Shown here: piece after piece, positions 17,301 to 45,800 of the stretch
Layout: each line of letters starts with the position of its first letter
How positions within the stretch are numbered: position 1 is the stretch's first letter
DNA from: Rugalucina vietnamica
Lineage: Eukaryota; Mollusca; Bivalvia; Lucinida; Lucinidae
Assembly: GCA_964017185.1 (NCBI GenBank)
Contig: OZ024875.1
Span: 32,993,456-33,057,455, forward strand
Length of the DNA stretch: 64,000 nucleotides
Direction: 5' to 3'
The notes under the pieces: model-generated
Database searches by the model: none
The model's input: the letters and a program-made list of their open reading frames with translations, nothing else
What the model was told of the DNA's origin: nothing
Translations under genes and position numbers: made by a program

Positions 17301-20300
17301 GGGCTGTACAGTCACAGAAGATGGTAAGAGGCTGGAAATTTTGGATTTAGAAAGTAGAGAAATTGTACTTTCCGTGTAGCGAAAACAAAGGCGCTGATCG
17401 AAAACAAAGGCGCTGATCAGCTTCGCAGTACTGCGAAGCTGATCTGCGCCTTTGCTTTGTCTGGTGTGGATTCGAGCCCTCGAGGGCCACACACGGCGCA
17501 CATGTGAGACAAGCGGGTGTGCAAGGTGGATTTTCAACCGTTTTCGCACCACCTACTGATTGTTCCGTCTCGTATGAAAACTGAAATAAAAATGATTATT
17601 TTGGATTAAAAATGGGTACCCAGATAGCAAGGATACGTTGGTCCCACGTTGGTAGTTGGTGGAAATGCAGGCGTGGATTTGTCAACATTGGACCAACATC
17701 GGTCTAATGTAATATACACATGGAAATAAGTTAGGGAACACCGGTAATAATGTGACTACCACCTTTGGACTGTATATATCCTTCTTTGTAAAAAAATATA
17801 AAAAATGTTTTGACAACTTGTCAGAATCTGCAATATCCAATGTTGCTTCTATGTGAAAATGGTTAGCATCAAACATTATCTGTGGCGGACAGCGGCCATC
17901 TTTGATTCAGATTTTTTTTGCTAAAATTAAGAAACGCACTGCTAGTCGTTGCGATAACTTCATTATTTGAAATCGCATTGTCGTACTTTTTCGCAAGCAT
18001 AAAGCTGAGGCATTACTTGTTGAACTTTGATCACAAATTCTTTATTTTCTGACCGACTGTCGCCGGTAGGTCCATACTTTCCCGGGGGTAGGTGTCTTGA
18101 TCACGTTTTGTTCTTTGGGTATACATTTTGCAGGTTGTAAATTTTGGGTCAGATATTCGATATGACCCTTTAGGAATCTAAACATGCACGTTCTGGTTAT
18201 AGTGTCCTAGCGGAATTATTCTTTTACGGCTTTATTGGCAAAATATCCACGAATTTTGCTTTCCATAGAAATCAATGCAAACAGTAGATTTTGTATGATT
18301 AGCTGGTTTAGAGATGACGCATGAAGTTTTAGGTCCGAAGTCGTTTATTCATTCAAAACGATAAGAGTCAACATTTTATTCCTGTTTTGCTGTCAAAAAT
18401 TGAGTTTAGCGGAGTGCAGAAGCAAAAAGGCAAACTTGTTTTACGTAAAAGTGAAGTTTTTCACATATGGCATATTGTATCCTCCGTAGTACAAAGACAA
18501 AATGTTGTGAATTTCCATAAATTGGTCTGTAGCTAGGCCAAGGTATGAAATATATGTGATTAAAATTTCAGTATCGCCAGAAAAAAAGAAAACGGATTTT
18601 TTCAAACTTTCCCCAAGAGCTAAAAGTGTTCCCTAACTTATTTCCATGTGTATATATTGCAAATATTTTTAAAGATAAGCAACACTTACAGAAACTAAAA
18701 ACAAACAACAGTATATTTTGTAGTTCTTTTAAAATATATGTCATGTTTGGTTGTCATTTACTGTTAATATTCTTAAAATAGTTACACAATTTACTACATT
18801 TACACCTAAATGCAACGATTTTTAAATTTAAGTATGCAAAACAACTCAGACATAGTATACATAAAATGCTCTCATTAAACTGCATCTCGTGGGCATCTTC
18901 TTCATGAGAGGATGCAAAATGTGAAAACCATAAAAGGTATAGAAAGAAATTAAGTGATAAAAATATATAACTAATTGCAATGATAAAATTAAAAACGTTG
19001 GATCGGCGTGGAACCGACATTCAGGCATATGTCATATGTGGATCCCATGTGGAGCCATCATGAGGGTTCCATGACAATCTCCCGTGCAAACTTGCGTTGA
19101 GCCCACGTGGATTGCCGACGTCGAACCCACGAAGTGAATGTGGGCGGTCAACATCGTGCCCACGTGGGTCCAACATATCATTGCTATCTGTGTATCTTGT
19201 TTTCTTTTCTGGAGACGTTTCTCCTTAAAATGGTAAATTGTTGGTCCTATTGCGAATTAACAATCTGCATTTAGAACAAAAATAAGAAATAAGGTCGGAT
19301 TCAGGCTTTATCAAAACAAATAGTAGATACATTTGTCTTCTAAATGCTAAATTTGTACATGTACCTTTCACATGTTTCATATCATTTGGACTTTGTGCCT
19401 CTTGCAGTTAAAACGGAAGGGCCGGGTCCAGGTGCTTACAAGACTGTTGACAGTTTCCTAAACAATGATAAACCAGCATTCTCCTTCAGAAAACGACTGA
19501 AAGACCTGGCCGAGGCTGAGAGTAAGTGAACATTCAACTTTATGGTTTTTATAGCCCCGCTTTGAAAAAGTGGGGCTATACTGGATTCACCCTGTCCTTC
19601 CGTAGTTCTGTCGTTCCGTTATTCTGTCATTCCGTCCTTCCGGCATTTCGTTTCCGTTCATTATCTTGAGAATGGCTTGACAGAATCTGACCAAATTTTG
19701 CATACACATCAACATTGACAAGATCTAGCTTGGGATTGTTACCCGTCATTTTTTGCCAAATTTTGACACAGTCACGGACCCTTGATTTACGTCAGAATTT
19801 CGTTTCCGCTCAATATCTTGTGAATGAATTGACAGAATCTGACCAAATTTTGTATGCACATCAACATCGACAAGACCTAGCTTGGGATTATTGTCCATCA
19901 TTTTTCGCAAAATTTTGACGGAGTTACAGCCCTTGATTGACGTGAGAATTTTGTTTCCGCTAAAAATCTTGAAAACGAATTGACAGAATCTGACCAAATT
20001 TTGTATGCACATTAACATTGACAAGATCTAGCTTGGGATTTTCGCACAATTTTGACGGAGTTACTGCCCTTGATTGATGTCAGAATTTTGTTTCCGCTCA
20101 ATATCTCGAGAATGAATAGACAGAATCTAACCAAATTTTGTATGCACATCAACATTGACAATATCTAGCTTGGGATTTTTGCCTGCCATTTTTTCGCAAA
20201 ATTTTGACGGAGTTACGGCCCTTGATTGACGTCAGAATTTCATTTCCGCTCTATAGCTTGAGAACAAATTGACAGAATCTGACCGAATTTTATATGCACA

Positions 20301-23145
20301 TCAACATTGACAAGGTCTAGCTTGGGATTGTAGCCCGTCATTTTTTGCCAAATTTTGACGGAGTTACGGCCCTTGATTCACATCAGAATTTCGTTTCCGC
20401 TAAATATCTGGAGAATGAATAGACATAATCTGACCGAATTATGTATGCACATCAACATCGACAAGACCTAGCTTGGGATTATTGTCCGTCATTTTTCGCA
20501 AAATTTTGACGGAGTTACGGCCCTTGATTGATGTCAGAATTTGGTTTCCGCTCAATATCTGGAGAAACGAATTGACAGAATCTGACCAAATTTTGTATGC
20601 ACATCAACATTGTCAAGATCTAGCTTAGGATTGTTGACCGTCAATTTTCGCCAAATTTTGACAGAGTTACGGCCCTTGATTGACATCAGAATTTCGTTTC
20701 CGCTCAGTAGCTCGAGAACAAATTGACAGAATCTGACCAAATTTTGTATGTACATCAACACTGACAAGATCCAGATTGGGATTGTGGCCCATCATTTTCC
20801 GCAAAATTTTGACGGAGTAACGGCCCTTGATTGACGTCTGAATTTCGTTTCCGCTCAATATCTTGAGAACGAATTGACATACATGTAATTTTACCAATCT
20901 TTTTACGTGCATCAACATTAACAAGATCTAGCTTGGGATTGTTACCTGTCAATGTTTTTCTCACACTGGAAAAAAGCTCAGAAGCGGGGCTATAGTCAGA
21001 TCCTCTGACAATTCTAGTTGTGTCCATCTTTTACCAGTGCTCTTTCTCATCCCATCACCAAATTAACATAAAGCCCATTGACATTTGCGCTGTAAACTTA
21101 GTCTTTGTATGAGTATTAACCTTTCATTGTATACATATATATCTCTTCCCATCATCTGAAAATTGCCTATGTCACTTGCTTTAACCAATTAACAGTATCT
21201 TGAGATAATTCCTTATAATTATTAGAATGAAAAAGTCTAATTTTTTTTATCCCCTGGATGTCCATGAAACTACAGATTTACATTTCTCTTAGAATTGTCC
21301 ATATATGTTATCAGAAATGACCTCCAAATGCTTTGGGGCATGAAAGGTGTCTAAATTGCACGAAATGCCAACACATATATTTTCCACCTTGACATTTCAG
21401 AGGAGACAATACCAGGCCCCAATGTTTATAATGCTGAAAACTGTGATAAACCGGAGAGCAAGAAGGCCCCTGCTTTTAGTATGGCTAAGAGACTGACAGG
21501 GCCAAACAGTAAGGACATAACTGTGTTAAATTTGTAAATTTATCCATATTATGAATTTGTGTTTTACATATGTTATTCATGATATCAGCACAGCAATTTG
21601 TGTACAACTTGCGATGTCAGCCATCTTGGATACCATCATCTGACTGTTTCACTAAAAGTTGCATTAACATAAATACATGGTTGCATAAACATTAACATAA
21701 TAGGTCACTTTCTGGCGGCAGTCATTCCGCTATAACAACATATAAGAACAAGTTTCAAATTATATTTATAAGAAATACAAGAATCCATAATTTCTGTAAT
21801 CATGTACGCACAAATACTATATATAATCATGTACGCACAAATGAGCCGCCTCATGGGAAAACCAACAATCTGCAAAGGCGAAAACAAAGACGCAGATCAG
21901 CGCCTTTGTTTTCGCTACCTGGATAGTATAATTCCTCTTCTACTTAAAGCCGAATTTCAAGCTTCTAGCTTTTTGCTGTGCTTGTACAGGTCGGTTTGTA
22001 TCAGACCTGTTCGGAAACCACATTGTTGGTTTTCCCATGAGGCGGCTCATATATTGACTGTATTGAATTTACTGTAGCACTGACTTCAGAAGCACCTATC
22101 ATATTTCCACTATGTTTGCTGCTCTTCCCTAAGGTATGAAGGACACTCCAGGTCCTGGAGAGTACTCACCAAAACTGAAGCCCTCAGCTCCAAAATATAC
22201 CATGACAACAAGACGAACATGTAAAGGAAGTAAGTAAACATAATTACTTGCACTTTTTTCAAAAACAGATTTTCAAATTCTGGTTACAGTCTGAACATCC
22301 ATGTTTGAATATATTGGTTTGAATATTGACTCGCTGCTGTCTGATATATCTAGGCATGTCAGTTTATATTAAGCTGGCCATTATTAAGTAATGGCCATTG
22401 AGATGTACATAAACATGATGTAGACCAACTTCACCTTTAACTTACTATATGTACTTGGTAAATCTGGTAAACAGATTGACTTTTGTTTTCCGGTCTTTTT
22501 TTTTCTCTAACATAAAAATTGATACATACTAGATCTACCCAAACTACCAAAAACCATTCCCCACCTTTTTATGGTTATAAAACAATAGCAGTTTTCTAAT
22601 GTTGGTTCGCCTGATTGCATTAACAGCACATTATGAAAACTTGCCCATGCAATAAACAGAGATTTTTTTAGCTTTAAAAATTAAAAATTTTCAGCTGAAA
22701 AATTTTGATATTTTTCTTATTTTTGCTCAAAACATAGATTGTGGGTACACGTTAGAACCGCCTCGTGGAGGCGGTTCTAACAAGTACCCACAATCTATGT
22801 TTTGGAGCAAAAATAAAAAAAATAGGTATACACCTGCATACCCCTGTTTTGCTATATAAAAGTGGGGTTTAAGGGGGTATACATTTCACGCACATGTTTT
22901 CGTGATAATGAAAAGAATATATCCTAATTCATATGCAAAATTAATTTCACTTTATATTCAAAATTAAATGTACTTTATTTTTAGCTTTTGTGGGTCCAGC
23001 CCCTAATCGCTACACCCTACCAGAATCTATAGCCTCCAAGAAGAAAGGAGTTATCTTCAAGAGCAGAGCCAGTCCATATGTATATTCTGGATTTAGGGGC
23101 ACCAAGTTAATGGAGCCTTCAACCCTGCCTAAAATCTTAGCTTAA
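387..23145 (+). CDS. SHIPPO/ODF3-type sperm-tail PG-rich repeat protein, 12 exons, 5' partial
   Basis: Joining 387-488, 1026-1139, 2082-2216, 2630-2743, 6671-6760, 7287-7391, 10711-10809, 17111-17233, 19408-19521, 21401-21508, 22134-22229 and 22985-23145 gives one open frame of about 452 codons ending in TAA. Every junction is AG/GT and every intron interrupts a codon after its first base. Almost every exon carries one PGP-x-Y type unit followed by a basic aromatic stretch (for example YPGPADY, IPGPFEY, APGPDY, GPGPGAY, IPGPNVY, TPGPGEY), the signature of the SHIPPO/STPGR repeat found in ODF3/CIMAP and STPG proteins. Family members are associated with sperm flagella and ciliary microtubules; a role here as a microtubule-associated axonemal protein is inferred. 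The repeat number exceeds that of vertebrate ODF3 (about 254 residues), so exact orthology is not assigned. The start codon and upstream exons are outside the window. It converges on the ARIH2 gene downstream. Confidence 0.9.
748..766. repeat. (ACAT)n microsatellite
   Basis: Short ACAT tetranucleotide run in SHIPPO intron 1. The rest of that intron (489-1025) shows nothing recognisable. Confidence 0.6.
1026..1139 (+). CDS. SHIPPO gene exon 2
   Basis: Acceptor CTATTTCAG ends at 1025 and donor GTATTG starts at 1140. It encodes the unit HIPGPFEYN followed by a lysine-rich segment. Length 114, phase 1 at both ends. Confidence 0.88.
1197..1494. repeat. 28-bp minisatellite in SHIPPO intron 2
   Basis: About ten units of a ~28-bp sequence of the form TTTTTGTGAACTATATGC plus CTCTCACATA, with small deletions. 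It begins 57 bases after the donor of exon 2. The remainder of the intron to 1760 has no recognisable feature. Confidence 0.85.
1764..2053. mobile_element. TIR element, GAGGTTAT/ATAACCTC ends
   Basis: The ends read CCTGAGGTTATAAAG and ATAACCTCGGG, with subterminal GCTCAGC/GCTGAGC-like arms and an inner perfect hairpin GCCAACAATTGTTGGC near 1835-1850. A second copy is at 31656-31898 and part of one at 24120-24252. Non-autonomous; its right end is about 30 bases from SHIPPO exon 3. Confidence 0.75.
2082..2216 (+). CDS. SHIPPO gene exon 3 (degenerate repeat)
   Basis: Acceptor CCTTTTTCAG ends at 2081 and donor GTAAGC starts at 2217. The unit has lost the PGP core (reads GVLGKYKVEY) but keeps the GPKYKMGTKG second half typical of the repeat. 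Length 135. A dispersed inverted-repeat element ends about 30 bases before the exon. Confidence 0.82.
2630..2743 (+). CDS. SHIPPO gene exon 4
   Basis: Acceptor ATATTTTAG ends at 2629 and donor GTAGGT starts at 2744. It encodes FQAPGPDYRP and the second-half motif GPKKSFGQKP. Length 114, phase 1. Confidence 0.9.
2911..3312. mobile_element. foldback element, copy 1 (29-bp hairpin arms)
   Basis: Arms 2931-2959 and 3007-3035 are perfect inverted copies (start TTCATGGAGCTATGAACC). The 3' part through GGTTCATCTAAGGAGG at about 3297-3312 is shared with the copy at 3872-4352. Apparent small ORFs inside both copies are repeat-borne. Confidence 0.75.
3872..4352. mobile_element. foldback element, copy 2 (extra arm)
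   Basis: Close copy of 2911-3312 with an additional right arm inserted, so the motif CCCACTGCGGTTCATAGC occurs twice in the same orientation. The interval 3313-3871 between the copies has no recognisable feature. Confidence 0.75.
4990..5420. repeat. degenerate ~45-60 bp tandem array
   Basis: Loose repeats of TTTTTACTTTTCAAAAT, GCGATCAGG and GAGTGGAAACCC. Strongly diverged. The flanks 4353-4990 and 5420-6670 (SHIPPO intron 4) show no gene. Confidence 0.55.
6671..6760 (+). CDS. SHIPPO gene exon 5
   Basis: Acceptor CTAACTTCAG ends at 6670 and donor GTAAGT starts at 6761. It encodes GPADYDV and GPSYSFGIKLPEP, a canonical repeat. Length 90, phase 1. It follows a 3.9 kb intron in which I found no further exon. 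Confidence 0.9.
6968..7015. repeat. poly(T) tract, 48 bases
   Basis: Uninterrupted T run in SHIPPO intron 5; could be the tail of a retroposed copy on the - strand, but no body was recognised. Confidence 0.9.
7287..7391 (+). CDS. SHIPPO gene exon 6
   Basis: Acceptor ACATTACAG ends at 7286 and donor GTAAGG starts at 7392. It encodes FSPAANTYDIGTTIG then APAISISGRE. The PGP core is replaced by SPA. Length 105, phase 1. Confidence 0.88.
7424..8205. mobile_element. repeat copy split by ~570 bp insertion
   Basis: 7424-7500 and 8070-8205 match consecutive parts of the uninterrupted copy at 30936-31155 (shared TTCCATTTTTCGATGAA and GTTCTGCGGCGTCACA). The ~570 bp between them is absent from that copy and includes the palindrome at 7918-8056. 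Confidence 0.65.
7918..8056. repeat. long imperfect palindrome
   Basis: GGTGAATACCAAATATATTT and its inverse near the right edge, with inner arms ATCTCGTGAGTTGAAAA and TTTTCAACTCACTCGAT. It can form a long cruciform; a foldback element is likely. Confidence 0.75.
8332..8369. repeat. (TC)n microsatellite
   Basis: About 19 TC dinucleotides in SHIPPO intron 6. From 8370 to 9224 nothing recognisable was seen. Confidence 0.9.
9225..10258. mobile_element. ~1.03 kb element with perfect 28-bp TIRs (Tc1/mariner-like)
   Basis: Left arm 9225-9252 and right arm 10231-10258 are perfect inverted repeats beginning TATACTCATCAAAAG. TA at each edge fits a TA target-site duplication, as in Tc1/mariner elements. 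No transposase frame is visible, so it is non-autonomous or decayed. Confidence 0.8.
10319..10339. repeat. poly(T) tract
   Basis: Run of about 21 T in SHIPPO intron 6. The rest to the exon at 10711 is featureless. Confidence 0.85.
10711..10809 (+). CDS. SHIPPO gene exon 7
   Basis: A strong polypyrimidine tract and acceptor TTCTCTAG end at 10710; donor GTAAGC starts at 10810. It encodes GPCPATYYPV and a second-half segment. Length 99, phase 1. The next intron is 6.3 kb and contains the nested ORF. Confidence 0.88.
11276..12121 (+). CDS. intronless SHIPPO/PG-rich repeat protein nested in intron 7
   Basis: This is a 281-codon ORF from ATG 11276 to TAG 12119-12121. The first ~75 residues are Ser/Arg-rich and probably disordered. 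Four degenerate SHIPPO units follow: TPGPDYYNIKSTIG, TPSPGQYEIKSTIG, PAPTKYNMKSSIG and NPGPTSYQ, each followed by an ARF-x-G-D/E-R basic motif and an F-L-L/V segment. The ARF..GD/ER spacer distinguishes it from the surrounding host gene. A splice-acceptor-like TTTTCCTTAG ends at 11273, just before the ATG, so a 5' untranslated exon could join here. Splicing host exon 7 to this acceptor would hit TGA at once, so this is not an alternative terminal exon of the host gene. It may be an old retrocopy or an independent gene for a ciliary or sperm protein. The in-frame upstream GTG at 11252 is not favoured as start. Intact frame argues for function; no polyadenylation signal was assigned. Confidence 0.8.
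   Translation: MVKKETPRSHRIYSRSTGSLQNRSPRSPTSDDDISLPSLRSTTRLQSRSSVRGFNRLNAGSRLTLPAEFQTPGPDYYNIKSTIGERGGPVFKGDRNRSFIQAKSSNATFLLPRLVNETPSPGQYEIKSTIGKGHRSTFGHARRDARFAGDRTNNAIFLLQKYDDPSPAPTKYNMKSSIGSKSFHRLSPISGPSFAKSERNARFSGERNARFLVPKAISTNPGPTSYQTEQYGEFGKNVKGAGFGRSRRTSRFPGDHKAVFLLAERVDQFKRPSSFTSFRMP
12122..14142. other. intronic stretch after nested ORF
   Basis: No gene recognised. The only structure is a small foldback at 13141-13249 with arms CTTTCACTGGATGAT and ATCATCCAGTGAAAG. It presumably holds the 3' untranslated region of the nested ORF. Confidence 0.4.
14143..14375. mobile_element. MITE, CCCAGTTGTTCAAAA family, copy 1
   Basis: Ends CCCAGTTGTTCAAAATT and TTTTGGACAACTGGCCC. The inner hairpin centres on GAGAATCCTTTGATTCTC near 14230-14250. 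A second copy is at 24503-24745. Confidence 0.8.
14640..15008 (-). pseudogene. decayed non-LTR retrotransposon C-terminal relic
   Basis: The - strand reads, across several frameshifts, ARMPDGR-like text then LPKTVF and GGKRSQGEHKKYCKDTVK, which resembles the end of many LINE reverse transcriptase ORFs (RMPDxRLPKxxLYGEL..GKRSQGRPKxRFKD). The hairpin-ended element at 15010 begins at its edge. Confidence 0.5.
15010..16410 (+). mobile_element. hairpin-ended tandem-repeat element, AGCTCACC family, copy 1
   Basis: The left end is a hairpin at 15012-15044 (AGCTCACCTGAGCC/GGTGAGCT arms), then a CGTCGT microsatellite (15058-15081), then about three units of 425-450 bp sharing GGCCTATGATTTTGAAACTT and TGGCCAATCAAAGCC. 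The right end holds palindrome AGGACCATTGGTCCT (16393-16407). No coding capacity. This layout resembles tandem-repeat-bearing non-autonomous elements of bivalves (pearl/CvE, Helentron-like). Confidence 0.8.
16411..17110. other. intron 7 remainder, no gene recognised
   Basis: A 90-codon - strand open frame at 16389-16661 spans the element edge and has no recognised domain. Nothing else is evident before exon 8. Confidence 0.3.
17111..17233 (+). CDS. SHIPPO gene exon 8
   Basis: The acceptor ends GCATCTGTAG at 17110 and donor GTAGGT starts at 17234. It encodes GRPGPADHDV then SPLYSCRQRVKP. Length 123, phase 1. A partial TGAGCC-type repeat starts only a few bases after the donor. Confidence 0.88.
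17241..17462. mobile_element. TGAGCC foldback family, partial copy
   Basis: Contains the family internal sequence (AAACCAACAATTTGGG, CAGGTCCGACACAAACC) and the hairpin GCTGATCAGCTTCGCAGT. The right terminus is missing and GAAAACAAAGGCGCTGATC is duplicated. Confidence 0.75.
17617..19194. mobile_element. TIR element with nested insertion
   Basis: Outer ends TACCCAGATAGCA (17617) and TGCTATCTGTGTA (ending 19194), followed inward by repeated CACGTGGG/CCCACG motifs. A second element occupies 17713-18654. No coding recognised. Confidence 0.6.
17713..18654. mobile_element. ~0.94 kb element with perfect 29-bp TIRs, nested
   Basis: Arms 17713-17741 and 18626-18654 are perfect inverted repeats starting TATACACATGGAAATAAG. 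The TA edges fit Tc1/mariner-type insertion. No transposase frame. Confidence 0.8.
19408..19521 (+). CDS. SHIPPO gene exon 9
   Basis: Acceptor CCTCTTGCAG ends at 19407 and donor GTAAGT starts at 19522. It encodes EGPGPGAYKTV and PAFSFRKRL. Length 114, phase 1. Confidence 0.92.
19551..20995 (+). mobile_element. hairpin-ended tandem-repeat element, TAGCCCCGC family
   Basis: The left end is a hairpin (19551-19580, ATAGCCCCGCTTT/AGTGGGGCTAT), then a TTCCGT/GTTCCG microsatellite-like stretch, then nine units of about 151 bp (shared GACAGAATCTGACCAAATTT and GACGGAGTTACGGCCC). The right end is a single arm AGCGGGGCTATAG. It starts 30 bases after the donor of SHIPPO exon 9. Confidence 0.85.
21401..21508 (+). 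CDS. SHIPPO gene exon 10
   Basis: Acceptor GACATTTCAG ends at 21400 and donor GTAAGG starts at 21509. It encodes TIPGPNVYNAE and APAFSMAKRL. Length 108, phase 1. Confidence 0.92.
21841..22050. mobile_element. TGAGCC foldback element (MITE)
   Basis: Ends ATGAGCCGCCTCATGGG and CCCATGAGGCGGCTCAT. It lacks most of the internal hairpin. Preceded by a duplicated ATCATGTACGCACAAAT. Confidence 0.9.
22134..22229 (+). CDS. SHIPPO gene exon 11
   Basis: Acceptor CTTCCCTAAG ends at 22133 and donor GTAAGT starts at 22230. It encodes DTPGPGEYSPKL and APKYTMTTRR, a textbook repeat. Length 96, phase 1. Confidence 0.92.
22622..22912. mobile_element. GTATACCCC/CATGCAAT repeat, copy 1
   Basis: Inverted core around GGTTCTAAC/GTTAGAACC with GTACCCACAATCTATG arms. 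Termini are like ATTATGAAAACTTGCCCATG and CACATGTTTTCGTGATAAT. Other copies: 23144-23340, 36436-36692, 45148-45425, 47590-47840; a poor one near 39475. Confidence 0.75.
22985..23145 (+). CDS. SHIPPO gene terminal exon 12 with stop
   Basis: Acceptor TTATTTTTAG ends at 22984. It encodes VGPAPNRYTLPES, then a C-terminal tail reading SPYVYSGFRG, and ends in TAA at 23143-23145. The stop codon touches the edge of a dispersed repeat (23144-23340). An AATAAA lies near 23575, but no polyadenylation site can be assigned with confidence. Confidence 0.9.
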
Positions 23146-25359: not shown

Positions 25360-26870
25360 CCAGAGGACCAATGGTCCTGTAAACGCTCACCTGAGATCTG
25401 CTGCATATACCAATAAACATGTTTGAATATTATGGTATTTAACTCCAGTGCAGGGGCAGATGAAGCCCTTGGGCCATTTTCTTTCTTCAGACAATATTCT
25501 GTCCATTTGCCAATTTCCTGCTGGCTTTTCCCTTCAAATGACATTTTAACAGTTTTCCCAATTCAAATGCATAGGCAACCCATGTTGACCTTGCCATAAA
25601 CTTGGTCAAGGTCATCACAGGGTCTTGATCTATATATACATTGGAGTACTTTAGCCATCGATGCTTCACGCCAAGTTTCCTTGAAATCAGTTTATTGGTT
25701 TCAGAGAAGAAGAATTTTGATGGGTTTTTACCATATATGGGCATGGCAACCATCTTTGTCATGTGACCTAGATTATTTATATACACATTGATTCCCCAAT
25801 TTTATAGATGCATCACATAAAATTTGGCTTTGATTGGCCAAGGGGTTTCAGAGGAGAAGACGTTTGAATATTATGGAAATATACATGTATATTGCCCCAG
25901 GGTGGGGGTACATGAGCCCCTGGGGTCCAATTTTTTCAGAATCATTAATATTCAGTCCTACTTCCCATTTCCTGCAAGACTTTCACTTTAAATGACATTT
26001 TAAAAGTTTTCCCCATTCAAATGCATTGGCGACCTATGTTGACCTTGCCGTAAAATAGGTCAAGGTCATCACAGGGTCATGATTTATATATACATTGTAG
26101 TGCTTGAGCCATCGATGCTTCATGCCAAGTTTCGCTGAAATCGGTCAACTGGTTCTGGAGAAGAAGATTTTTGAAGGGTTTTTACCATATATGGGCATGG
26201 CGGCCATCTTGGTCATGTGACCTGGATTTTTTATCTACATATTTGTTACCCCTTCCTATTAATGCTTCACATAATATTTGGCTTTGATTGGCCAAGTGGT
26301 TTCAGAGGAGAAGACGTTTGAATATTATGGAGATATACATGTATATTGCCCCGGGGTGGGGGCACATGAGCCCCTGGGGTCCAATTTTTTTCAGAATCAT
26401 TAATTTACAGTCCTACTGCCCATTTCCTGCAAGACTTTAACTTTAAATGACATTTTAAAAGCTTTCCCCATTCAAATGCATTGGCGACCTATGTTGACCT
26501 TGCCGTAAAATAGGTCAAGGTCATCACAAGGTCATGATTTATATATACATTGTAGTGCTTGAGCCATTGATGCTTCATCCCAAGTTTCGTTGAAATCGGT
26601 CCACCGGTTCTGGAGAAGAAGATTTTTGAAGGGTTTTTACCATATATGGGCATGGCGGCCATCTTGGTCATGTGACCTGGATTTCTTATATATACATTGG
26701 TTCCCCCTTCCTATTGACGCTTCATATAAAATTTGGCTTTGATTGGCCAAGCGGTTTCAGAGGAGAAGATCTTTGAAATTGTGGACGGACGGACGCCGGA
26801 CGGACGGACGCCGGATCATGGCCATCCTATAAGCTCACCTTGTGAGCCTAACAGCTCAGGTGAGCTAAAA
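25360..26870 (-). mobile_element. hairpin-ended tandem-repeat element, AGCTCACC family, copy 2
   Basis: Reverse orientation: AGGACCAATGGTCCT end at 25364, units of about 430-450 bp (shared TTTGGCTTTGATTGGCC), microsatellite GGACGGACGGACGCC (26783-26815), then hairpin 26832-26866. It ends six bases before a TGAGCC element. Confidence 0.85.
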
Positions 26871-33800: not shown

Positions 33801-36800
33801 TCTACCACCAGGCTACAGCGCTCCCCTCTTTGATATAACATTTTTCAAACAGTACTATTACACACAACATAGGTCACATCTAGCAAATCTAGTCATAAAA
33901 CTACTTTCACTGTACTAGCAATGTACCCGGTTTTGTCCATGTGAAATCGTTCACACTTGCAGAAAAATACAAGAACCGTCTAGCAAACTTATACATACCA
34001 CTGGTAAATGACTAAGAACCCACTAGTCACAAAAAAAATATGAAAATCAGTGAATAACAAAATAGGTCAATGTATTCATGGCCAACAGACTTACCCTTTC
34101 AAAGTAAAAGAGGTATTTCTTGAGGGCTTCCCGAGCTTGAGCATGTACGGACTCGTTGGCGATGTTTGGGTTCTCTTTGTAGCGACTACACTCGTAATAC
34201 TCGCTGCCGTGAGTCTTCCAATCACCCAGACACATCCAACAAAAGTCGTATTTACATTTGGAACATTGCTGAAAATATGGAATTGATATCTCGGGTACAT
34301 TAGATGTATCATAGTTATGTCTTCAAAGTGGAGACAGAAGCTGCAAATTGCTTTATGACAATCTCAAGTGTTTAAGAAGTCGCTTACATGTTATCATTTG
34401 CAGGTGAAAAGAGTTGAAGCTTAAAATGGGGTTCTTACATTTATATAGAATGACGATCTTGTGGTTTTCAATAAGAATACAGTTGTTGTTTTTTTTTTTT
34501 TCAACTACTTACCAAATGATTACATCCGCCATTTTTCTCAATACAAACATGGCATTTGGGACACTGAAACACAAAAATATTGGGAAATCATATAAATTCT
34601 ACATTACAGTTACTGCATAACCTATAGAAGCGAATCAATATCAGTAATGTGACATCAAGTACAACTGACAATCTGACTGTAGATCTTTTTATAACTAAAT
34701 AGTCACATTAAAATTATGCCTTACAATCTTATATATTCAATTCTTTAAAGACAAAAAATAGAACATTATGAGAAAACCAGATTTTTGCCTATGCGAAAAG
34801 AAAGGCGTAGATCAGCTGTGCAGTAATTGAGCATGTTTTCGCTACATGGATAGTACAATTCCTCCTCTACTTATACCCAAAATTTCAAGCCTCTAGCCTG
34901 CTTCTGTGACTGCACAGGCCAGTTTGTGTCAGACCTGGTCGCAAATCCCAAAGACCGGTTTTCTCGCGTCCTGGCTCATTTATCTGAACCTACAATTTGT
35001 CTACTTTCTTGTTGATTGGGATAAGTGGGCGACATCTTGATCAAACGTGGTTTGCATAATTATGCAAAAATAATGTCAAAGAGATTGTCCAAATAAGTCT
35101 TTAATCATCTTCTGTGGCTGTACAGCCCTGTTTGTGTTGGACCTGATTAGAAATATTGAGAATAGTGCCATGCTGCTCAAATTTCATAAAAATATTATTC
35201 TTATTATTGTTCCATGTGAACTTACATCTTTTGTGTTGGCACTAATATAGTTGGCTGTTTCTGAGTCATCAGCACACTTTGTCAGCCATTTCTTGATTAC
35301 ATCACAGTCTGTGGGGGCGTGGTACTCAATACCACAACGGAAACTGAAACATACACAACATTGTCATTGAAAAATACACAATGTTTTTACAATTAATCAG
35401 TCATCAGCACACTTTGTCAGCCATTTCTTGATTACATCACAGTCTGTGGGGGTGTGGTACTCAATACCACAATGGAAACTGAAACATACACAACATTGTC
35501 ATTGAAAAATACACAATGTTTTTACAATTAATCAGTCATCAGCACACTTTGTCAGCCATTTCTTGATTACATCACAGTCTGTGGGGGCGTGGTACTCAAT
35601 ACCACAACGGAAACTGAAACATACACAACATTGTCATTGAAAAATACACAATGTTTTTACAATTAATCAGTCATCAGCACACTTTGTCAGCCATTTCTTG
35701 ATTACATCACAGTCTGTGGGGGTGTGGTACTCTATACCACAATGGAAACTGAAACATACACAATATGTTGTCATTGAAATATACACACTGTCATTGAAAT
35801 AAACACAATGTTTTGTCATTTTACAATTCATGCTCCATCAGGCTTTTTTGTCAGCCATTGCTTGATTTAACCAGCTTGTGGGGGGGTACATTTTTTGTCA
35901 ATTAAATATACACGAACACCATATGTTGTCACTGAAATTTGTCATTTTGATTTACAATCAATCAGTCGACACAACATTTTGTCAGCCATTTTTAGGGCAG
36001 TACAGGCCGTAGGATTGTGGTACTCTATACACCACAGTGGAAACAGAAATATACACAATTTGTTGTCATTGAAACATACATGATGTTTTGTCATAGATAT
36101 ATTCACATTATTTTATCACTGAAACGTAAAATTATTTTGTCATTTACAATCAATCACTCACTGGGTTGTCAGCCATTTCTGGATTTTTCACAGGCCCTCA
36201 CAAAATCAGTATTAGGGAGAAATGATCTGTGAGTGTGAGCTTCAAGTGTGCATGACCTGGTTGTCAATTTCTCTTTGCAACTCAGATGAATGTTTGACTT
36301 ACCAGGAACATGTTTTACATGTGGCACACAGAACTTTCTTAGGTTTTGATTCTTTAGCTTTCACAATAACAGAACAGTTAGGACCAGGACAGAACCGCAA
36401 TGCTGGATGACTCTGAAAAAGTAAAAATATCAGGTAAACATGTCCGAATGATGTATACCCCCTTGAACCCCACTTTTATATAATGAAACTGGGGTATGCA
36501 GGGGTATACCTATTTTTCTTATTTTTGCTCCAAAAAATAGATTGTGGGTACTCGTTAGAACCACCTCGCCAAGGCGGTTCTAACTTGTACCCACAATCAA
36601 TGTTTTGAGCAAAAATAAGAAAAATATCCAATTTTTTCTTATGAATTTTTTCAAATTTTCCCTGTTTATTGCACGGACAAGTTTTCGTAATGATATAAGA
36701 TGACTTCACCTGATACTGGAGGTCTTTTATGTTTTGACGCCCAGAATGTTCACAGTAATACTGCTCAAAATGGAAGACCTTTTCTAATGTTATCAAATTT

Positions 36801-39800
36801 GTTACAAAAATATGACACTCCTTAACACAATACACTTAATAGAGGACAGTACCAGAGGACCAATGGTCCTGTAAACGCTCACCTGAAACCTGAGATATAT
36901 ACCAATAAACTTGTTTGACTACAATGGTAATATACATGTATATAACCCCAGGGCCAGATCAGAGCAACCCCTGGAGTCAAATTCTTTTTCAAATCATTAA
37001 ACTCCAGTCCATTTGCCAATTTACTGCAAGTTTTGCCCTTCAAATGACATTTTAACAATTTTCCCCATACAAATGCATGGGCGACCTAAGTTGACCTTGT
37101 TGTAAAATAGGTCAAGGTCATCCAAGGGTCACAATTTATATAAAATTTGTAGAGCTCCATTGCCTGATGCTTCATGCCAAGTTTCAAAATCATAGGCCTT
37201 CTGGTTCTGGAAAAGAAGATTTTTAAAGGATTTTGCTATTTATAGCCATGGCAGCCATCTTGGTCATGTGACATGACCATTTATATATACTTTCATTCCC
37301 ACTTCCTAACAATGCTCCTCATAAAGTTTGGCTTTGATTGGCCAAGCAGTTTCAGAGAAAAAGATCTTTGAATATCACTGTAATATACATGTACATTTGT
37401 ATATTGCCCCGGGGTGGGGGCAGACAGACCCCTGGGGTCCAAATTTTTTCAGAATCATCAATCTTAAGTCCACTTGCCCATTTCCTGCAAGTTTTTCCGT
37501 ACAAATGACATTTTAACACTTTTCCCCATTCAAATGCATAAGCGACCTATGTTGACCTTGCTGCAAAATAGGTCAAGGTCATCCCAGGGTCATGATTTAT
37601 ATAAACTTTGTAGAGCTCCAGTCACTGATGCTTCACACCAAGTTTCAAAATCAGTGGCCTTCTGGTTCTGGAGAAGAAGATTTTTAAAGGTTTTTTCTAT
37701 TTATAGCCATGGCGGCCATCTTGGTCATGTGACCTTGACCATTTATATAAACTTTCTTTCCCCCTTCCCAACGATGCTCCATATGAAGTTTGGATTTGAT
37801 TGGCCAAGCGGTTTCAGGGGAGAAGATGTTTCATTATTATGGAAATATACATGTATATAGCCCCGGGGCAGGGGCAGACAACCCCCCAGGGGCAAAAATT
37901 TTCCATTAACATTAATCTTCTGTCCATTTGCCTATTTCCAGTAAGTTTTACCCATTAAATAACATTTTCCCATTTTTTCCCATTCAAATGCATGGGCGAC
38001 CTAAGTTGACCTTGCCGTAAAATAGGTCAAGGTCATCCTAGGGTCATGATTTATATAAACTATGATGGGCCCACGTCCCCAATGCTACATACCAAGTTTC
38101 GTGGAAATCGGCCCACTGGTTCTGGAGAAGAAGATTTTTAAAGATTTTTGCTATTTATAGCCATGGCGGCCATCTTGGTCATGTGACCTGGACCATTTAT
38201 ATAAACTTTCGTTCCCCCTTCCTAAGGATGCTCCACATGAAGTTTGGCTTTGATTGGCCAAGCGGTTTCAGAGGAGAAGATCTTTGAAATTGTGAACGAC
38301 GACGGACGCCGACGGACGACGGACGACGGACGACGGACGCCGGAGCATGGGCATACTATAAGCTCACCTGTGAGCCTTCGGCTCAGGTGAGCTAAAAATA
38401 GCAACAATTTTAAAACAATTTTCTCTTGCAAGAATTGCCAATCTGGGTAATTTGTCATAAAAAATAGATTCTAAGTTTAAATCTGTAATATTTTGTTACT
38501 AGTTCTTACGAATAAGAAAATTTGTAACTAAGAGATGAAGCATAGTTTGACAGCATCCCACGTCCCTGATGGGATTCGAACCCGGATCGACAGGGTAGAA
38601 ATCCAATGCTCTAACCACCGAGCCAAAGACTTGACCCCATGGAGGTTTCTATGATCCCATTTTAAAACAAAATATTCTGATTTCTTTATAGTAATTGAGC
38701 TGCCTCATGAGAAAACCAACAACCTGTATATGCGAAAACAAATACGCAGATCAGCTTCGCGGTAACTGCGAAGCTGATCAGCGCCTTTGTTTTCGCTACA
38801 CGGATAGTGTACAATTCCTCTACTTTCTAAATCCAAAATTTCAGTCCTCTAGCCATCTTCTGTGACTGCACAGGCTGGTTTGTGTCGGACCTGTTCCCAA
38901 ACCACATTGTTGGTTTTCCTATGAGGCCGCTCAATTATATTGAAACAGACTGATCCTCAGATTTGAATCTCTGATATTTAGGTCTCTAATCTATCTATAA
39001 ACTGCTATGCCTACCTTTACATAATCATAGAATGCGAGCTGTGAGTATCTGTCTCTAAGTTCTGGTTTACTGAGTACACTGCAGAGGAAATCCTCTGGTA
39101 CCAGCACATCACAGTCTATACCCATACACTCTATACCTGAAACAGGGAAACAGCATATTCTAATTATAGAGCGGGGAAACTTATTATCTTTCAAGATGTC
39201 TTTCCCATACATGGACACTGCATTATTCTGTATATAGGAGATGTGCTTGGAGATTTTTTGTCATTTATGCTGGCAAGAAACACAGATATTTCTGATTTAC
39301 TAATTAAAATTCTCCAACTACCAAGGTGTTCTAATGGATAGCATTTTTGCTTTTAAATAGAAATTGCTGGTGTGATGCCAGGCCAGTACAGGCCTGTCAT
39401 GTTGTTAACTTATGTTCATCCTGACTTAATATCGGCAAACCACCTACAGGGTGTAACACTTTGTTGACATAATAATGGAACCACTGAATGATGAACATGC
39501 AAAAAAACGTATACCCCCTCAATCTTTGTTTTGCGAAGTGTACCCACAATCTATGTTTTAAAAAATATATTATTAGTAAAGTTTTCCGAATGAGATTTTC
39601 AATTTTCACAGCTGAAAAAAATCTCTGTATACTGCAATGGAATATTTTTGTAACGAGTTTCCTGGACAGCGCCACCTACCTGTGGTAATTCCCTGCTGTA
39701 TTTGCACCTGACAATAGTGATCCCAGCACTCGGCACAGAACATGTGACCACAGGACAGACCCTGGAGCTGGTCTACTGTCACACGACTCATACATACACT

Positions 39801-42800: not shown

Positions 42801-45800
42801 CATTGGTTCATGAGATATACACCTCTAGAGAAACTTTAACCAAAACTTTGACGTAAATTCCACGAACGTTCCGGAATTACGAACGAAGAAACGAACTAAC
42901 TAACTAACATACGAACGGACGAACGGAAAAGCGAAAGCTATATACCCGTCGGCATAAATGCCGGGGGTATAAAAAGAAACAATGAAAGCCCTAGGAGGAG
43001 TTGATTTCACAAAGTATGCACTTCCAACCATTATTGTATGTAAGCAATAGTCGAAAAATGGCTAAGTTAAAAATTGCTGTAAATTTGTCAAAAACTATTT
43101 TTTCAGCATTATAATTCTTTATGCACATCTTCAATATGTCTGTAACATGTCTGCAAAGTACTGAAAAGAAATACTGAAAGCCCTAGGAGGAGTTGATTTC
43201 ACAAAGTATGTATGTAAGCAATAGTCGAAAAATGCCAAAGTTAAAAAATGCTGTAAATTTGTCAAAAATTATTTTTTCAGCATTATAATTCTTCATGCAC
43301 ATCTTCAATATGTCTGTAACATGTCTGCAAAGTACTGAAAAGAAATACTGAAAGCCCTAGGAGGAGTTGATTTCACAAAGTATGTATGTAAGCAATAGTC
43401 GAAAAATGGCAAAGTTAAAAAATGCTGTAAATTTGTCAAAAATTATTTTTTCAGCATTATAATTCTTCATGCACATCTTCAATATGTCTGTAACATGTCT
43501 GCAAAGTACTGAAAAGAAACACTGAAAGCCCTAGGAGGAGTTGATTTCACAAAGTATGCACTACCAACCATTATTGAATATAAGCAATTATAGAAGTTAA
43601 AAATGCTGTAAATTTGTCAAAAATTATTTTTTCAGCATGACAATTGTTCATGCACATCTGCAATACATCTGAAACATATCAGCAAAAAATTAAAAGGAAA
43701 CATTGAAAGCTGTAAGAGGAGTTGATTTCACAAAGTATGCACTTTCAGTACTATGGCAAACATGTTAAAGGAAGACTTAAAAAGTCCCATAACTCTTGCA
43801 ATACTGACCCTTTGGCCCCTAAATTCATACCACACATGTATTGTCTGATGGTGCAAGTGTGGTGAAAATTTGAAACTAATCAGGCAAAAGCTACTCAAGT
43901 TATTCAGAAAGATGTCCAAATGTTGACGGAATGACGGAATCAAGGAATGACGGAATCACGGAATGACGGACAGGCTGAAAACAGTATACCCCCCTAAAAC
44001 TTCGTTTTGCGGGGGGTATAAACATCGAACTCGTGCAATTAATTTGAATAAGTCTAATATTTAAGTTTAATCTACCCTACCCGCTAAATTTTACTGACAA
44101 CTAAAAATTTCTGAAAAGTTGCAGAAAATGGGGTGAAAAAATGAAGTTTCTTAGATTGACCATTTTCATGACTCATTCAATGCATATCATCAATATGTAT
44201 CCAAATGTAAAATATTAGGAAAATATCTGCAACCGTTTACGAGATATTCAACAAAACAAAAACCGGAAGTTCCGAAATGTCAAATGTTAGCAGCGAACAT
44301 CCTTAAATAATACTTTGTTGTTGTTTTTTTTGGTGTCATCTGTTCGTAATTATGCATATCATATTAGGAAAACTATATTGAAAATTTAATTTTGGACATT
44401 GCATGTACTTTTTCATATCTACAATTCAGAATACAGTTATCCTCAATTCAAGTCAGCAAAGACTGTATACTGACCTTGTGTTGAACCTTTGGCATGATTT
44501 TTGAGTCGACAAGTAATTTGTCGGCATCTTTGGAATGACTGAAAGTGAAGATTTAGGAAATACATTATCATTCTATGAATGACCAAATTGACAGAACAAA
44601 TACCCAATTCTATTTCATAGAACAGTACACATTCTGTAAATTTGGAAATGTTCCCCAGAACTAAATTTTTGCAAATATTCTTGAATGCGTTGTTTTGCAA
44701 ATTCAAATTTTTCGCTAATAAAGACTAAAAGAGTTACTACAAACTTTATAGACTGCAAGAGTACTCATTTGCGAATTCAAGAACTCGCTAATTAATTGGA
44801 ACTAGAAAAATAGCAAAATAGAAAAAAGCATGATTTCCCATTCTTATACATATACATACAACAAATATTGATATTAAGTCTTGCCTGCCAAACTTATGTC
44901 TGAGTACCACCACATTTATGAGCTACATGTATATTGGTATACAGAAATGATGCAGAACCCATGGCTTTAATAAGATAAGAGATAACCATTCTTTAACTTG
45001 ACTACTTAACATGACTATAACTGTTTGACTATAAAATCAAGCAACAACCAAAATATTTACCTTTCAATGACAAACTCTTTCTTCCAGTCATGAGCCTGTA
45101 GCAACATCTTAGCAAGGGATGGCTGGATCTGAAACACGTTGTAGTTTTAACATTACAAAAACTTGCCTATGCAATATATAGAGATTCTTTTCACAGAAAA
45201 AGTTGAAAATTTCTCTGAAAATTTGATATTTTTAATAATTTTGCTCAAAACATATATCGTGGGTACACGTTAGAACCGCCTCGCCGCGGCCGTTCTAACG
45301 AGTACCCACTATCTATGTTTTGGATCAGAAATAAGAAATATAGGTATTCCCCTGCATACCCAAGTTTCACTATATAAAATTGGGGTTTCAGGGGGTATAC
45401 ATTACACGGACATATTTTCTTGTTGACTTTTCAGACCCATCATGACCAGCTGCAGAAGACCTGCATATGTACAATCAACAAAGGTGCTGACAAGTTGTGC
45501 AATAGCTTTTCTTTCTTAACTAAGTTAATAGATTACATAAGTACACCTCAATGTCTTTATAACACTATTGTTGGGGTCCAAGACAATTTCCGTGTTAACC
45601 ATCCCATCTGTGTTATTACAAGTGTAAAGTGTATAAATATATAACAAAATTAGTCTAAAATGACCATTAGGGGTCCAGCAATGGCCCATGTTATATCCAA
45701 AACCATGTTGTAATGAGTCGTGCTATAAAGAGGTCCAGGTGTAATATGAATACCCTACTTACAAAATGTTATGACTCAACACCTTGCGTCAGACCTTACA

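Follow-up and report, generated by a model that had tools for sequence, protein, structure and literature searches.

The window, a stretch of 64,000 nucleotides from the lucinid bivalve Rugalucina vietnamica, carries a minus-strand gene whose joined exons match the solved human ARIH2 protein over 356 query residues (E=3e-171), a match that bears out its earlier assignment as ARIH2. Four 135-bp units lie head to tail across the boundary between one exon of this gene, here called the real exon, and the intron upstream of it. Read on the minus strand, each unit consists of 57 nt from the 3' end of the intron followed by the first 78 nt of the exon, and the last unit in transcription order is the start of the real exon itself. 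The features, given by window position and in transcription order, are as follows.

36303..36410, minus strand: upstream ARIH2 exon (exon 6 of the sequence-only reading); this is the span used in the exon joins, and the real start may be 36412.
35344..36302, minus strand: 959-nt intron preceding the real exon; the array and its remnants take up about 850 nt of it (36193-35344).
36153..36193, minus strand: oldest recognisable exon copy, score 37, exon start lost.
35974..36043, minus strand: decayed exon copy, score 44, acceptor CAG now CTG (read by eye).
35847..35887, minus strand: decayed exon copy, score 42, exon start and acceptor lost.
35264-35791: tandem array as reported by TRF, period 135, 3.9 copies, 96% matches, score 982.
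35671..35805, minus strand: unit U4; decoy acceptor precedes 35748, exon part as in U2 with one further change, intron part diverged upstream of -15.
35536..35670, minus strand: unit U3; decoy acceptor precedes 35613, sequence the same as U1.
35401..35535, minus strand: unit U2; decoy acceptor precedes 35478, and only two CpG sites distinguish the unit from U1.
35266..35400, minus strand: unit U1, 57 nt of intron 3' end followed by 78 nt from the start of the real exon, with the real acceptor before 35343.
35226..35343, minus strand: real ARIH2 exon (exon 7 of the sequence-only reading), 118 nt; donor GAT/GTAAGT, its G at 35225.
34513..34563, minus strand: next downstream ARIH2 exon, 51 nt, encoding 17 residues at the start of RING2 and flanked by TTTCAG and GTAAGT.

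TRF and a unit-by-unit comparison agree on the exact 135-bp period first described for the array, and the three intact decoy acceptors (35748, 35613 and 35478) do precede the real one (35343) in the direction of transcription. These young decoy acceptors are the same as the real acceptor from -15 to -1. The exon boundaries required correction: the last base of the upstream exon is 36303, and the real exon spans 35343 to 35226 (118 nt), with introns of 959 nt upstream and 662 nt downstream. The older, decayed units that had been proposed farther upstream were recovered as three exon copies, reaching 36193, whose scores (42, 44 and 37) all exceed those of 500 dinucleotide shuffles, the best of which scored at most 30. 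The acceptor AG is present in all three young decoys and in 0/3 decayed copies, the latter partly read by eye. A search of the genome with the exon peptide returned the real exon, the three decoys, two weak matches and one exon on contig C8 (58%), which we take to be ARIH1-like and which, by eye, has its acceptor at the same position and phase as the real ARIH2 exon. A search of the genome for further copies of the array reported one match, the array itself, from one candidate. Tandem arrays are common in the window, with others at 19645-20951, 25493-26785, 36995-38285 and 43035-43739 (periods of 151, about 454 in two arrays, and 174 bp). Two pairs of hairpin-like inverted repeats, 74% and 75% complementary, lie at 36453-36624, just upstream of the exon that precedes the ARIH2 array.

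The differences between units are few. No difference separates U1 from U3 over their 135 nt. U2 departs from U1 only by two G to A changes, at exon positions 6 and 26; U4 has both of these, has A for T at exon position 16, and diverges in its intron part from -16 upstream. U1 contains just two CpGs (positions 5-6 and 25-26), and no CpG is present in U2 or U4; the U2 differences are thus CpG to CpA at the only two CpGs of the unit (the chance of both falling on CpG bases is about 0.0007), and both alter an amino acid (R to H and A to T). Overall, the decoy exon changes comprise two nonsynonymous and one synonymous. The alternation of unit types, in which U1 resembles U3 and U2 resembles U4, is real; however, the doubling of a 270-bp block that had been proposed for it is one of two histories that these data do not separate. 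Repeated CpG decay may explain the pattern equally well, since both differing sites are the unit's only CpGs and are lost in both U2 and U4. Exon position 16 and the intron part of U4 would be a poor fit to a simple 270-bp doubling.

When the upstream exon is joined to any decoy, the product reads ...KCADD and then TGA, as had been anticipated from the reading frame. In the predicted truncated ARIH2 the Pfam IBR match is retained, whereas those covering RING2 (IBR_1 and IBR_2) and the Ariadne domain are lost, again in agreement with the initial prediction. Exons running from a decoy acceptor to the real donor would measure 253, 388 or 523 nt. The statement that the units have no donor was too strong: each contains a weak donor-like site, AAA/GTGTGC, at 4.5 bits versus 7.4 for the real donor (approximate donor matrix), and a site at 36161, inside the oldest decayed copy, reaches 7.5 with the same matrix, as high as the real donor. 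It is more accurate to say that there is no strong donor in the intact units. A complete poison exon was rejected, since each unit has only the weak donor-like site. Alternative polyadenylation was also rejected; of four signals sought in 36310-35100, the only occurrence was one ATTAAA at 35105, outside the array. An approximate acceptor matrix singled out neither the decoys nor the real site, scoring the real acceptor at 3.4 bits, that of U4 at 4.5 and others inside the intron at up to 5.1, and no conclusion is drawn from it.

Arrays of this kind have been described in amphioxus under the name of mirages. The published text on the globin gene BflGb6 describes units of 150 to 160 bp, each made of an intron 3' end and the 5' part of an exon, with six and three units in two haplotypes, the units being 81 to 100% alike (PMC3087553); BflGb9, Adh3, TnC and PGBD5, the last in PMC3902484, are further examples (PMC3087553, PMC3902484). 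As described there, the amphioxus arrays resemble the ARIH2 array in being minisatellite-like tandem units across an intron-exon boundary, with the acceptor and the 5' part of the exon in units of about 150 bp in BflGb6, and in having inner units that are alike and a boundary unit that is less so. In ARIH2, the units run head to tail across the boundary, many but not all of them have the splice signal, and U1 to U3 are homogenised (98.5 to 100% alike), with the edge unit U4 left out by virtue of its diverged intron part. The ARIH2 array would therefore appear to be a further case of a known kind, the tandem boundary-spanning mirage, to judge from its sequence organization. A literature search judged on titles alone gave no title on mirages beyond PMC3087553 and PMC3902484, both on amphioxus, which does not imply that none is in print.

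It could be envisioned that the array is regulatory, such that the three intact acceptors would capture part of splicing and lead it to a premature stop, with the number of units setting ARIH2 output. The identity of the decoys to the real acceptor from -15 to -1, their position ahead of it in transcription and the early TGA that follows from every intact decoy are consistent with such a role; however, the acceptor is retained in none of the three decayed copies, the young copies arose too recently to show whether they are conserved, and amphioxus mirages reportedly splice normally, as RT-PCR suggests for BflGb6 (PMC3087553). We regard this regulatory function as unlikely.

It is probable, in our view, that the ARIH2 array is a boundary-spanning mirage without a selected function that arose by unequal exchange, and that splicing is kept correct mainly by exon definition. 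An initial duplication with one endpoint in the intron, 57 nt from the boundary, and the other about 78 nt into the exon would have left the intron with a truncated exon start that had an acceptor of its own. The array would then have been expanded by unequal exchange and renewed at its downstream end near the real exon, which is consistent with the identity of U1 and U3 and with the presence of decayed units farther upstream. The tolerated duplications would be only those that leave one whole exon, the copies falling inside the intron while the exon stays whole, and this would account for the architecture of the array. The real acceptor alone is close (118 nt) to a strong donor, and together with the long flanking introns this would lead exon definition to favor it. 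Decoy use may occur in a minority of transcripts, which would then be lost to nonsense-mediated decay. It is expected to be low rather than zero because, in human data, the upstream 3' splice site is described as significantly less preferred where the flanking introns are long, its preference being neither abolished nor shown to be reversed (PMC9225289).

Three further cases were found in the same genome (1.09 Gb, 47 contigs), as follows.

C17:29979493-29982048: DNAH6-like array, 158-bp period, 15.8 copies, 97% matches.
C15:4128681-4128995: dynein exon pair, with one older, truncated copy 162 bp upstream of the real exon and 89% alike.
C16:24901300-24901950: myosin P-loop exon, with its 3' part and donor region repeated 135 bp downstream as a 112-nt direct repeat, 96% alike and with the same translation.

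The first case emerged from a DHC_N2 profile search, in which one exon appeared 16 times at a spacing of about 158 bp; its peptide has DNAH6 as best match (E=1e-30). Ahead of the real exon lie 15 decoys with an exact period of 158 bp, each with about 131 to 133 nt of exon start. The AG is kept in 15/15 decoys, and the last 25 intron bases are as in the real copy in 12 of them. A strong donor follows the last copy only, giving a 181-nt exon, and use of the first decoy would give one of 2,551 nt. Among the 15 decoys there are 13 distinct exon versions, whose distinct changes are 10 synonymous and 5 nonsynonymous where about 75% nonsynonymous would be expected (P 0.0007), a count that leaves out one nonsynonymous junction base present in all 15 copies. 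Changes common to several copies are 5 synonymous to 1 nonsynonymous (P 0.004), and singletons are 5 to 4 (P 0.046). Such a synonymous excess would be expected if different alleles of that exon had supplied the copies.

The diversity of the DNAH6-like decoys also bears on whether units have been added or collapsed by the assembler. The ARIH2 array is known from one assembly and includes two identical units (U1 and U3), and one amphioxus mirage appears, according to the published description, to have been aberrantly assembled in the draft genome (PMC3087553); however, the ARIH2 array is extended by decayed units with differences of their own, and the 13 exon versions among the DNAH6-like decoys argue likewise against such an error. 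An assembly artefact is therefore very doubtful.

In the C15 dynein pair, 12/13 changes are synonymous, where 71% nonsynonymous would be expected. No further genome copies of this exon were reported (one candidate). The retention of coding sense in its truncated copy lends some weight to the idea that these arrays are remnants of mutually exclusive exons, the upstream members of which have lost their 3' ends. In ARIH2, by contrast, none of the copies makes up a full exon ending in a donor of its own, each unit having a weak donor-like site only, and the young copies all end at one exon position, 38 nt short of the end of the 118-nt exon (allowing 2 shared bases), followed in U2 to U4 by the same intron piece; moreover, 2/3 of them have nonsynonymous changes. 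We consider such an origin for the ARIH2 array to be extremely improbable.

The C16 myosin case is the mirror arrangement, with a putative decoy donor instead of a decoy acceptor. Exon 3' ends are reported to be duplicated in amphioxus mirages too (PMC3087553), and in this respect the two are alike. Elsewhere, at C3:16465077-16467095, three copies of one myosin-head range lie about 950 bp apart, like alternative exons. The scans by eye gave 95 DHC_N2 matches, 16 of them one array (103/122 candidates scored); 66 AAA_8 matches with one clear pair (76/76 candidates scored); and 64 HECT matches, among which no neighboring copies of the same range were seen (88/88 candidates scored). The myosin head scan gave 91 matches (65/253 candidates scored), with one pair, on C16, confirmed. 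A set of AAA_8 matches with overlapping ranges on C16 showed no repeat. In a survey of kinase exons (20 regions from 136 matches, selected as short, mostly stop-free matches), no direct repeat with a spacing under 1.5 kb overlapped any of the exons (0/22); the one region flagged in the repeat search has its repeat between its two exons and was discounted. Overall, the survey of this genome gave three cases besides ARIH2 in roughly 321 matched places, which, coming from partial scans, is not a genome-wide rate and leaves out other neighbors with overlapping ranges, such as C4:39568019/39569486, C8:56014160/56015929 and C15:4126688/4127358.

Compared with the amphioxus mirages, the cases found here involve other genes (ARIH2, a DNAH6-like gene, another dynein and a myosin), with periods of 135 to 162 bp, and there are up to 15 decoys, versus the six and three units reported for BflGb6 (PMC3087553).

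Two older lines of work offer further parallels. Reed and Maniatis reportedly studied competition between duplicated splice sites (discussed in PMC9225289); in the ARIH2 array, likewise, near-identical acceptors would compete in cis, but the arrangement is natural, with three decoys in ARIH2 and fifteen in the dynein gene. Rogers (cited in PMC3087553) is said to have proposed in 1989 that introns are gained by tandem duplication of a proto-splice site. The ARIH2 array is also an exon-derived tandem duplication inside a gene; however, no new intron is evident, the existing intron having grown instead, and the duplicated 78 nt of the exon contain no AGGT, the motif required for intron gain by AGGT tandem duplication.

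The interpretation of the ARIH2 array as a mirage without selected function is favored by the array and its unit identities, by the decayed units without an acceptor, and by the fact that the changes among U1 to U3 are confined to CpGs and both change an amino acid. The recurrence of the same architecture in the DNAH6-like, C15 dynein and C16 myosin genes would also count for it, as do the normal splicing suggested for BflGb6 (PMC3087553) and the weakened upstream preference of human 3' splice sites between long introns (PMC9225289). Three points count against it. The human preference is weakened and not shown to be reversed, so that decoys would be expected to see some use. All young decoys have the AG (3/3 in ARIH2 and 15/15 in the DNAH6-like array), which their recency explains but does not require, and the copy changes in the two dynein cases are mostly synonymous (10/15 and 12/13), which plain neutral decay does not predict. 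A broader proposal is that boundary arrays, recurrent in this genome, act as length-variable splicing rheostats, in which unit number would set the loss of transcripts to decoys and ARIH2 and dynein output would vary among individuals with the length of the arrays, and that they also store past versions of exons; we consider this distinctly unlikely.

In conclusion, the ARIH2 array constitutes a natural version of a classic splicing experiment, in which acceptors that are identical over the last 15 intron bases differ mainly in their distance from the donor, and the DNAH6-like array, with 15 decoys that all have the AG, is an extreme test of exon definition. Boundary arrays can also mislead gene annotation and the mapping of short-read junctions. 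That they recur within one genome suggests that duplications of a splice boundary are commonly tolerated and are able to lengthen introns, as in the ARIH2 intron, where about 850 of 959 nt are of this origin.
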